Shown here: positions 28,277-31,239 of the stretch, in pieces
How positions within the stretch are numbered: position 1 is the stretch's first letter
Layout of the letters: every line of letters begins with the position of its first letter
From: a virus
Virus record (IMG/VR): IMGVR_UViG_3300044701_001532
Location: 1-32,247 of that record
Reading direction: 5' to 3' (one strand)
DNA length: 32,247 nt
Translations under genes and position numbers: made by a program
Notes under the pieces: model-generated
The model's input: the letters and a program-made list of their open reading frames with translations, nothing else
Database searches by the model: none
What the model was told of the DNA's origin: nothing

Positions 28277-28497
28277 GTTGGAATCTCCGTTTCATAATCA
28301 AATACTTTAAGTGTTACCCAGCGTTTAGGAAACAACATTTCTTTTCCAACAAAATCTTTGATGTTGTAATTTGGATCAGGAACTAATCCAATCAACTCAA
28401 TTTTGTTATCATAATCTCTGAGATAGAGATCATACTTGTCAGCAGCAATAGTTCTATTCCTAATGGCCAACTTCTTTGCAATTTCTTGTATACTCAT
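28273..28497 (-). CDS. Small phage protein, unknown function
   Basis: A 74-residue protein with a helical start (IQEIAKKLAIRNRTIAADKY) and a beta-rich end (RWVTLKVFDYETEIP). Nothing in it identifies a family. It overlaps the MazG gene and the next small gene, both by ATGA, placing it in the replication transcript. Confidence 0.7.
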   Translation of the reverse strand: MSIQEIAKKLAIRNRTIAADKYDLYLRDYDNKIELIGLVPDPNYNIKDFVGKEMLFPKRWVTLKVFDYETEIPT

Positions 28498-28871
28498 ACT
28501 TTTTCTCCATTAACAAACTTACTAAAATCAGGTGGTTGCCAACCTTCAGGTTTCAAAATTTTACCATCATCTCTACGCAAAACTTGTTTGGTATCTTTAT
28601 CAATTTTCCTTAGATTGCTCAATGCACCTTCATCCCAGATTTTATCACAATCCCAGCCTTTTGACAACATATAACCCACAATTACCCAAATCATATCAAA
28701 ACAAGCATCGATTTCTTCTACTTCATCATTATTTAAACGAGCATCAGTAAACTCATTGAATTCTTCAACAATAAGTTTATGGTAAAGTTTTGCTTGCGTG
28801 AGATTGTTTACAACTGTAGATTGACCTGCAGCTTGCATGAAGACTTGTACATCAGAAAACACTTTAGTCAT
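28494..28871 (-). CDS. MazG-like nucleotide pyrophosphohydrolase
   Basis: A 125-residue all-alpha NTP pyrophosphohydrolase. The metal-binding motif is EEFNE (36-40) and the paired acidic motif is EEIDACFD (52-59), the EExxE...ExxD layout of the MazG/HisE group. Family members hydrolyse NTPs, dNTPs or (p)ppGpp to monophosphates. In T4-like phages they are thought to act on nucleotides or the alarmone response, but the substrate here is unknown. The ATG at 28871 has GAGG five bases upstream. It is the first gene after the structured element at 28883-28956 and probably starts the replication transcript. Confidence 0.87.
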   Translation of the reverse strand: MTKVFSDVQVFMQAAGQSTVVNNLTQAKLYHKLIVEEFNEFTDARLNNDEVEEIDACFDMIWVIVGYMLSKGWDCDKIWDEGALSNLRKIDKDTKQVLRRDDGKILKPEGWQPPDFSKFVNGEKV

Positions 28872-28882
28872 TATAACCTCAT

Positions 28883-28956
28883 AAAAAAGTAACCCCGAAT
28901 GGTGCGCTTTGCCATTCCGCTAGTGGAATGTATCACAGTCAAGAGGCGTTCGGGGT
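28883..28956 (-). terminator. Structured intergenic element with terminator-like end
   Basis: On the minus strand an 8-base stem (ACCCCGAA with TTCGGGGT, 28949-28956 and 28892-28899) closes a loop of about 49 bases. The stem is followed within a few bases by six T residues (28883-28888). Inside is a second hairpin, CATTCC with GGAATG (28913-28918 and 28925-28930). CCATTC (28912-28917) can instead pair with GAATGG (28897-28902), which would break the outer stem. It fits a terminator after the DUF3501-type gene, or a switch-like leader for MazG. The loop is larger than in a simple terminator. No known riboswitch consensus was recognised. Confidence 0.5.
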
Positions 28957-28980
28957 GTTGTTACGAATATTTAGTATACT

Positions 28981-29556
28981 TCAAACAAAATCTTTTGTCA
29001 AGTTTTCTTTTGTAGTATCTTTTAATTCTACCGATGTTTGATAGGTATCATGATCTACACCGACAATAAACTTCTTACCACTCTTAATATCTTGAATCAT
29101 TTTTGGTGTGAATTCAAATCGCATAAAGTGTACCGCAGAAGTTTTGTCTTCAGTACTTCTTTCCATATCTTCATCGGCAATTGCAAAAACAGGATTGTGG
29201 CCATCTACTTGCATATAAACTTTATGTTCAATACCAGTAAGTTTCTGCAATTCAACCTTTCTTTCTTCTGGATTTCCATACTCAATAAACATTGTTGCTT
29301 TGAGATTTGTTCCAGTAGGAATTAAAGGATTGTAAGCATCTAGTTCGTCTTGAATACCTTCTTGTTCAAAGGTTCTTTCAATACGAAGCATTTCTTGAAT
29401 TTGATACTTAACAGTTTTTGCATCTTCAAAAGTTAGAGTGATGTGATTGCCCAATTCAACTTGGCGTTGTTTTTTATGGGCAATCGCTTCTTCTCTAAAT
29501 TTAGGACGCAAACGACTGTATTGTTCTAAAGAATACAAATCGTTTACGGTCAACAT
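28981..29556 (-). CDS. DUF3501-type protein
   Basis: A 191-residue protein that reads closely like bacterial DUF3501 proteins. Recognisable blocks are [19 protein letters not shown] near the start, [20 protein letters not shown] (about 41-60) and [20 protein letters not shown] (about 68-87). The function of the family is unknown. In many proteobacteria it is encoded beside rubrerythrin and a large iron-sulfur protein, suggesting an oxidative-stress or redox role. Here it starts two bases after the rubrerythrin stop, with GAGG in the end of that gene, so the pair is surely co-expressed. The iron-sulfur partner is not in the window. Confidence 0.88.
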
Positions 29557-29558
29557 AA

Positions 29559-29990
29559 TTATGCCTCTGCTTTGTATGCGTCAAGAGTTTTCTTGAACTT
29601 GCCAGCATGTGAACGCTCTGCCTTAGCAAGAGTTTCAAACCAGTCAGCAATTTCATCAAAGCCTTCGTCACGGGCATCTTTTGCCATACCAGGATACATG
29701 TCTGTGTATTCATGTGTCTCACCAGCAATAGCAGACTCAAGAGCCTGTACAATGTCTGCGGCAGGAAGACCAGTTTCTGGATCACCTGAACCACCATTGA
29801 TTAGATACTCCATGTGACCATGTGCGTGACCAGTTTCACCTTCAGCAGTATGACGGAAGATAGATGCTACTTCTGGTGCACCTGCGATATCAGCCATGTT
29901 TGCGAAGTAAAGATAACGGCGATTTGCTTTAGACTCACCTGCAAAAGCATCTTTGAGGTGTTGTTCAGTTTTTGTTCCTACGACTTTCAT
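29559..29990 (-). CDS. Rubrerythrin (ferritin-like di-iron protein)
   Basis: A 143-residue four-helix di-iron protein. Iron-ligand motifs are [11 protein letters not shown] (first helix), [10 protein letters not shown] (second), [13 protein letters not shown] (third) and [11 protein letters not shown] (fourth). Rubrerythrins reduce hydrogen peroxide to water. This one lacks the C-terminal rubredoxin domain of classic rubrerythrins, so it needs another electron donor. The ATG at 29990 is preceded by AAGGAG. A terminator-like hairpin lies upstream (30059-30094), so it may have its own promoter, which I could not pin down. It forms a tight pair with the DUF3501-type gene and is an auxiliary metabolic gene, probably host-derived. 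Confidence 0.93.
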
Positions 29991-30109: not shown

Positions 30110-30226
30110 TTATTTACCTTTTAATTGTCTAATCACTTCTTCAATCTCACCTCGGATACCCTCACTTGAGGAAGGTATCCAAGGCAAAATATGTTGTAAC
30201 AATTTTATTACATCATGTGGATTCAT
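30110..30226 (-). CDS. Small ORF (38 residues) coupled to pstS
   Basis: A short ORF whose ATG overlaps the pstS stop as ATGA, the usual sign of coupled translation. The start reads MNPHDVIKLLQHILPWI and the second half IRGEIEEVIRQLKGK, giving two amphipathic helices around a Ser-rich turn. It has no signal peptide, membrane segment or known motif. A bulged hairpin (30154-30180) lies within it. It fills the only sizeable space after pstS and is followed by a terminator-like hairpin, which supports it being the last gene of that unit. It could still be a chance ORF. Confidence 0.5.
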   Translation of the reverse strand: MNPHDVIKLLQHILPWIPSSSEGIRGEIEEVIRQLKGK

Positions 30227-31239
30227 TTGTTATTAATTTGACTCCATACTCTTTCACGAATTTGTTTTGTTAGTGTATCAGGAAGTGGAACATAGTCAAG
30301 CTCTAATGCTAATTGTTTGCCATTCTTGAAAGCCCAGTCAAAGAACTTTAGGACTTCTTGTGACTGTGCTTTGTCTGCTGGATCTTTGTACATAATGATA
30401 AACGATGCAGTAGATACTGGCCATGCATCTTTACCTTTCTGATCAACAATACTCAGACCCATACCTGGAACTGAGAACCAATCAGCACCTGCGGCAGCTG
30501 CAGCAAAAGTCTTATCATCTGGGTCTACAAAGTTACCATCTTTGTTTTGTAGTTTCAAATGAGGAATCTTATTCTTCTTGGCATATGCATACTCAACATA
30601 TCCAATAGAACCTTTGATTCGTGTCACATTTGCAGCGACACCTTCATTGCCTTTACCACCAACACTGCTTGCTGCTGGCCATTTTACTGCTGCACCTCTT
30701 CCAACTTTTTCTGCCCACTCTTTACTCACAACAGTAAGATAGTCAGTCCAATTAAAAGTTGTACCAGAACCATCAGCACGATGTACGACAGTAATGTTTT
30801 CATTTGGTAGTTTCTTTCCTAGGTTTAATGCAACGAGTTTTGGATCATTCCATTTGGTGATAGTTCCCATAAACATTTCAGCAAGAACTGGACCAGTTAC
30901 TCTTAACTCACCTGGTGCAAATCCATCTAAGTTAAAAACTGGAACAGTGCCACCAATAACTGCTGGGAATTGTACTTGCCCATTCTTATCTAAGTCTTCT
31001 CCTTTTACTGGAGCGTCAGAAGCACCAAAAGTGACTGTTCTTGCATTGATCTGTCTAATACCACCAGAACTACCAATACTCTGATAGTTTAAGCCAACAC
31101 CAGTTTCTTTCTTGTAGGCTTCTGCCCACTTAGCATAGATTGGGTATGGGAATGTAGCACCAGCACCTGTAATATCTGCGGCAAAAGCAGAAACAGATAC
31201 TACAGATGCAATGAAAACACTTAACAATTTATTAATCAA
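30223..31239 (-). CDS. pstS: Phosphate ABC transporter substrate-binding protein PstS
   Basis: A 338-residue periplasmic phosphate-binding protein. Residues 1-20 form a signal peptide (basic start, hydrophobic core, cleavage after AFA). ITGAGATFPYPIY follows, and phosphate-binding loops SSGGIRQ, GASDAPV and RADGSGTT are visible. It would load phosphate onto the host PstCAB transporter during infection. The start is an unusual TTG at 31239, chosen because AAGGAG lies six bases upstream and the signal peptide begins there. No later ATG keeps the signal. By eye the protein resembles beta-proteobacterial PstS. An inverted repeat lies upstream at 31266-31284, but no convincing PhoB box was found. 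Confidence 0.94.
   Translation of the reverse strand: MINKLLSVFIASVVSVSAFAADITGAGATFPYPIYAKWAEAYKKETGVGLNYQSIGSSGGIRQINARTVTFGASDAPVKGEDLDKNGQVQFPAVIGGTVPVFNLDGFAPGELRVTGPVLAEMFMGTITKWNDPKLVALNLGKKLPNENITVVHRADGSGTTFNWTDYLTVVSKEWAEKVGRGAAVKWPAASSVGGKGNEGVAANVTRIKGSIGYVEYAYAKKNKIPHLKLQNKDGNFVDPDDKTFAAAAAGADWFSVPGMGLSIVDQKGKDAWPVSTASFIIMYKDPADKAQSQEVLKFFDWAFKNGKQLALELDYVPLPDTLTKQIRERVWSQINNK

Follow-up and report, generated by a model that had tools for sequence, protein, structure and literature searches.

What is the role of the GC-rich, structured patch that stands directly ahead of the MazG gene in a T4-like phage? The stretch of DNA analysed here, referred to below as the window, comprises 32,247 nucleotides of IMG/VR virus record IMGVR_UViG_3300044701_001532. 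An earlier note, made from the letters alone, had singled out positions 28883–28965 as a possible attenuator or ligand-sensing leader with two mutually exclusive folds; the sequence features that it listed are all present, and it left the strand unstated. Here we show that the element is an RNA of conserved structure rather than a two-state attenuator. Sequence and covariance comparisons give good support for its identity as a variant of abiF RNA (Rfam RF03085), which is the RNA antitoxin of AbiF/AbiD (Abi_2, HEPN) abortive-infection toxins. By analogy with that role, we propose that the element is probably a stand-alone phage antitoxin RNA that would neutralise host AbiF in trans.

A structured element at the head of the MazG operon

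All window genes lie on the minus strand, which is therefore the one to read for the element (28963–28883, the coding strand). From 5′ to 3′ the region runs TTGACA-N17-TATACTAAATATTCG TAACAACACCCCGAACGCCTCTTGACTGTGATACATTCCACTAGCGGAATGGCAAAGCGCACCATTCGGGGTTACTTTTTT ATGAGGTTATA-ATG, the last being the MazG start codon. The GC-rich stem of the earlier description consists of 8 bp (ACCCCGAA/TTCGGGGT) and encloses exactly 49 nt, the interior does hold a hairpin of its own, and a T-run does follow the outer stem (Table 1). The patch also stands out from its AT-rich surroundings as had been noticed, with a GC content of 54% against 35% for the window, in which equally GC-rich 68-nt stretches make up only 0.09%. 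An exact, GC-rich inverted repeat of 7 nt with TTTTT directly behind it should occur about 0.02 times per strand; the minus strand has a single such site, which is the element.

Table 1. Features of the element and its surroundings in the window
Feature	Position	Strand	Details and basis
Sigma70-type promoter TTGACA-17-TATACT	28973–29001	−	11/12 consensus matches; consensus match alone
TAAATA, T4-late-type box	28968–28973	−	N4 ahead of TAACAACACC; sequence comparison
abiF-type RNA, conserved part, 78 nt	28886–28963	−	UAACAACACCCC ... GGGGUUACUUU; R1, R2 and Rfam scores
P1 5′ strand ACCCCGAA	28949–28956	−	pairs with 28892–28899; covariation, phage and bacterial copies
P2 5′ strand CGC	28946–28948	−	pairs with 28905–28907; compensatory changes, 12 phage copies
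Extra apical hairpin CATTCC-ACTAGC-GGAATG	28913–28930	−	alignments and predicted fold
P2 3′ strand GCG	28905–28907	−	pairs with 28946–28948; compensatory changes, 12 phage copies
P1 3′ strand TTCGGGGT	28892–28899	−	pairs with 28949–28956; covariation, phage and bacterial copies
T-run TTTTTT after UUAC	28883–28888	−	sequence; bacterial copies likewise end UUACUUU and more T
MazG-type pyrophosphohydrolase, first gene past the RNA	28494–28871	−	PF01503 / phrog_671

The start predicted from the sigma70-type promoter falls a few nucleotides ahead of the RNA. The arrangement TAAATA-N4-TAACAACACC is exact in the window, in its sister contig (L089) and in the copies of L459 and L462. The T4 late box is TATAAATA, and the spacing would thus place the first nucleotide of the RNA at the start expected for a late promoter of the T4 type.

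The window is a fragment of a T4-like phage, with a DNA polymerase about 50% identical to those of cyanophages and 65–71% identical to those of IMG/VR contigs. Its minus-strand order is PstS, rubrerythrin, DUF3501, promoter, element, MazG, 74 aa, 99 aa, DNA polymerase, which bears out the placement of the element in the leader of a MazG-74aa-99aa-DNA polymerase operon. The sister contig (L001/L089) is 98% identical over the 5.8 kb that end at the element's 5′ edge (28963), and its element is identical save for one extra T. This T shifts a 14-codon frame that ends at the MazG start, and that frame was dropped as a candidate leader peptide.

Several observations concern the neighbourhood at large. 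Between 28963 and 30112 a module has been swapped relative to L089: the window has rubrerythrin and DUF3501, the sister a different rubrerythrin only; the window module carries stem-loop and promoter at its left, and the exchange stops exactly at the RNA 5′ edge. Rubrerythrin followed by DUF3501 (28981–29990) is a recurrent pair in aquatic phages (L081–L087, L298, L357, L360), DUF3501 having a Pfam match at 9e-72 and no PHROG match. A full-length pstS-like phosphate-binding protein gene lies at 30223–31239. Some T4-like contigs carry a permuted tmRNA of the two-piece type near rubrerythrin (L300:1240–1622 and L305:1945–2317, with Rfam tmRNA_permuted scores of 151.5 and 119.5 bits; also L313 and L347), and others have arrays of 13–24 tRNA genes beside the DNA polymerase gene (L120, L124, L130); ARAGORN found no tRNA in the window. 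In L012 and L014 a small ORF adjoins MazG with nothing between.

Folding of the element

Folding of the single sequence is modestly better than that of shuffled controls (z −0.9 to −2.1). The proposed pairing of CCATTC with either GAATGG or GGAATG exists on paper, but the case for the two exclusive folds that it was taken to give is weak. The alternative comes to −17.0 kcal/mol against −20.9 kcal/mol, with a pairing probability of about 0, and even while the outer stem is still incomplete it reaches only about 7%. The view that the element is not a plain terminator was upheld; its structure is conserved, and covariation in relatives, the check that the earlier note itself had named, was found in phage and bacterial copies alike.

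Homology to abiF RNA

The family was hidden from most direct searches. Rfam gave nothing useful on the whole window, where the apical insert hides the RNA. Exact and gapped DNA patterns (a 19-mer, the outer stem with T-run, the inner hairpin) returned only the sister contig and chance hairpins, a 20-mer had no match in genome contigs, and BLAST of the phage copies had none in phage records. Apart from the sister contig, the element was absent from the regions upstream of MazG relatives and from rubrerythrin loci in phages and hosts. A diverged copy came to light in L459–L461 when operon heads ahead of 74-aa gene relatives were read, and further copies were found in L462 and L124, the latter of 51 nt between tRNA-Gly and tRNA-His.

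A covariance model built from four phage copies only (R1) scores the window copy at 94.3 bits. It gave a strong match in a Zwartia genome and matches in 10 of 200 genomes of that family. The Zwartia match is Rfam abiF RNA (55 bits) and lies directly before a 311-aa Abi_2 protein; other bacterial R1 matches precede AbiD/AbiF-type reading frames, one of them apparently truncated (L545). In that locus the AbiF frame downstream of the RNA looks broken off at about 150 aa, and the RNA may have outlived its toxin. One match, in G011 (L555), was ruled out as abiF RNA; it is an ordinary terminator.

The reciprocal search gave the same link. R2, for which seven bacterial RNAs were the sole input, scores the window copy at 45.7 bits as its only match in the window, with an E-value of 1.5e-9 (E-values of both models are rough, from short calibration), and the L459, L462 and L124 copies at 46–50 bits. 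These scores are conservative, because the inner helix was specified one column off and P2 adds nothing to them. Homology thus extends to RNAs of genuine AbiF operons, at bacterial loci with Abi_2/AbiD proteins. With Rfam RF03085 the window copy scores 25.0 bits, below the gathering cut-off of 37 bits on account of a 30-nt apical insert, and the L124 copy 37.0 bits, at the cut-off.

The fold points the same way. The window RNA has P1 and P2 with an asymmetric internal bulge, the same structure as the Rfam consensus. Among the four phage copies, P1 has every cell paired and three pairs with two-sided changes, P2 has one such pair, and both helices covary across phage and bacterial copies. In 12 distinct phage sequences, 97.5% of P1/P2 cells are paired and 16 cells are two-sided compensatory, against 3.9 in shuffles; P2 alone is 100% paired, through C-G/A-U/U-A compensatory changes. 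The apical part measures 38 nt and has an extra hairpin in the window, as against a loop of about 12 nt in bacterial RNAs; this hairpin is absent from the bacterial RNAs recovered here.

Copies without a toxin gene in unrelated phages

A bacterial-type 52-mer compared with phage records matched intergenic sites of lytic phages. Among nine cultured phages with a copy or candidate copy, six pass the Rfam cut-off for abiF RNA (S-CREM1, S-SZBM1, Rhizobium RHEph21, Aeromonas PZL-Ah8, Salicola CGphi29 and Mycobacterium Redno2), and R2 additionally finds Pasto and Pan2. Only the site in S-CREM1 carries an RNA annotation. In PZL-Ah8 (L561:2440–2553) the abiF RNA starts a few nucleotides after CTGACTATAGGGATA, which resembles a T7-class phage promoter.

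No Abi_2 (PF07751) gene was found in the window, so that no toxin gene stands beside its RNA, nor in the nine complete cultured phage genomes, nor in 50 large T4-like contigs, which are fragments of genomes that may hold an abiF gene elsewhere. The RNA lies in tRNA arrays, between capsid genes or upstream of a gene of unknown function. Such unrelated contexts better fit an RNA gene acting in trans than a cis-regulator of MazG. They also speak against the ligand-sensing leader proposed earlier: the genes or tRNAs downstream differ each time, where a riboswitch would have a related set. A search of 100 whole IMG/VR records, mostly T4-like, found only copies already known, so the RNA is sporadic. 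Anti-defence genes usually are.

A probable antitoxin RNA acting against host AbiF

At bacterial loci the order is promoter, abiF RNA, T-run or terminator, and toxin gene. The window keeps promoter, RNA and T-run, with MazG standing in the toxin's place, and the simplest reading of this layout is an antitoxin RNA supplied by the phage. In the proposed course of events, whose steps of expression, binding to AbiF and phage protection we infer, transcription would begin from a promoter starting at or just before the conserved UAACAACACC, with sigma70-type and T4-late-type motifs both present, and the RNA would fold into P1, an asymmetric internal bulge, P2 and an enlarged apical part. Phage takeover would stop resupply of the host's own antitoxin RNA; the phage RNA would bind host AbiF/AbiD (Abi_2, HEPN RNase) in trans and keep the toxin inactive; abortive infection would then fail and the phage would be protected. 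In C. difficile an RNA with abiF motifs binds AbiF directly and neutralises it, in trans as well as in cis (PMC12373285), one RNA is bound per monomer in the PbAbiF structure, as reviewed in PMC12737573, and phage PhiTE escapes ToxIN, another type III system, by an antitoxin-like RNA, a proven precedent (PMC5449768). In the copies of the window, L459 and L462, the enlarged apical part might make AbiF binding weaker or different. L089 and L459/L462 have the late-type promoter motif only, and late expression there could come too late against an abortive-infection toxin.

A role in cis is the foremost alternative, and an unlikely one: the hairpin and T-run would partly stop transcription and set the MazG–polymerase level, perhaps through a fold switch. 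They do lie immediately ahead of the MazG ribosome-binding site, too close for another promoter to fit between, a strong predicted promoter stands just upstream of the hairpin, and the C. difficile abiF-type RNA likewise ends at a terminator before its toxin gene (PMC12373285). Yet the alternative fold is less stable by 3.9 kcal/mol, and the element is missing from the MazG operon of near relatives. Members of the family also stand ahead of unrelated genes and inside tRNA arrays, so control of MazG cannot be what the conserved part is there for. MazG and polymerase transcripts coming from upstream must nevertheless pass the hairpin, which makes a side effect on the operon likely, and partial termination for the MazG operon is a possible secondary role in cis.

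That the RNA persists without function, as the vestige of a captured AbiF system whose toxin gene was lost, seems less likely still: the layout of promoter, RNA and T-run is that of bacterial loci minus the toxin gene, but compensatory changes keep the helices in diverged phage copies, toxin-less copies recur in several unrelated phage groups, and compact phages rarely keep a useless GC-rich RNA. We give very little weight to an ordinary terminator or a PeSL-like promoter/stem-loop cassette at a module-exchange site of a T4-like phage. Promoter and stem-loop are present, and the sister contig ceases to be collinear exactly at the 5′ edge, 28963, but such a cassette leaves the match to abiF RNA and the conservation of UAACAACACC, GCC, GCGCACC and UUACUUU unexplained. 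Equally improbable is an RNA partner or guide of an unrecognised effector encoded by the phage itself rather than of host AbiF. AbiF-type proteins are relatives of Cas13 that use RNAs of this kind (PMC12373285, PMC12737573), and the T4-like contigs are incomplete; against this, no neighbour gene is common to the contexts seen, and complete T7-like genomes of about 40 kb have the RNA but no Abi_2.

Discussion

The RNA family and its antitoxin role were already known. New here are the enlarged T4-like variant, its spacing from a late-type promoter motif, the link to bacterial AbiF loci in both search directions and the finding that toxin-less copies recur across unrelated phages. The literature covered, which included few subscription papers, contains no proposal that phage abiF RNAs without a toxin serve in anti-defence. 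The known RNA-based counter-defences are few; PhiTE pseudo-ToxI is one, and RNA anti-CRISPRs are another. There is perhaps an even chance that toxin-less abiF RNAs form a widespread phage class of RNA anti-defence (in T4-like, T7-like and other phages) that neutralises AbiF, with the enlarged apical hairpins of freshwater T4-like phages tuning toxin range or resisting AbiF processing. As a defence AbiF is widespread, and it is reported to be the ancestor of Cas13 (PMC12373285, PMC12737573). If the proposal is true, a small, recognisable RNA in unrelated lytic phages would be a ready-made AbiF inhibitor, and phage escape from Abi_2 systems would become a directly testable question. Phage genomes, in which nearly all copies found here are unannotated, can be screened for the RNA. 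It may also explain an older report, cited in PMC12737573, of a lactococcal phage sk1 DNA region that gives another phage protection from AbiF.

With abiF RNA RF03085 the element shares P1, P2, the internal bulge, the CCC..GCCUCU..GC.CA..GGG blocks, the flanks UAACAACA and UUACUUU, a sigma70 promoter before and a T-run after; it differs in having no toxin gene, an enlarged apical part with its own hairpin, a T4-late-type box at a fixed distance and a score below the Rfam cut-off. The abiF sRNA of cyanophage S-CREM1, annotated in 2023 with no antitoxin role proposed there (PMC9964418), is likewise toxin-less and in a T4-like phage; it lies within a tRNA array, like that of L124, and unlike the window copy has a compact apical loop of the bacterial type. 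RCd22 of the C. difficile prophage phi027 is also a phage-borne RNA with abiF motifs, upstream of a gene and followed by a terminator, but it carries a tandem pair of motifs, and its AbiF toxin gene is present (PMC12373285). PhiTE pseudo-ToxI, as described in PMC5449768, has in common with the role proposed here that a phage RNA mimic of a type III antitoxin overcomes abortive infection, whereas it imitates ToxI repeats against ToxN and arose from repeat expansion in escape mutants.
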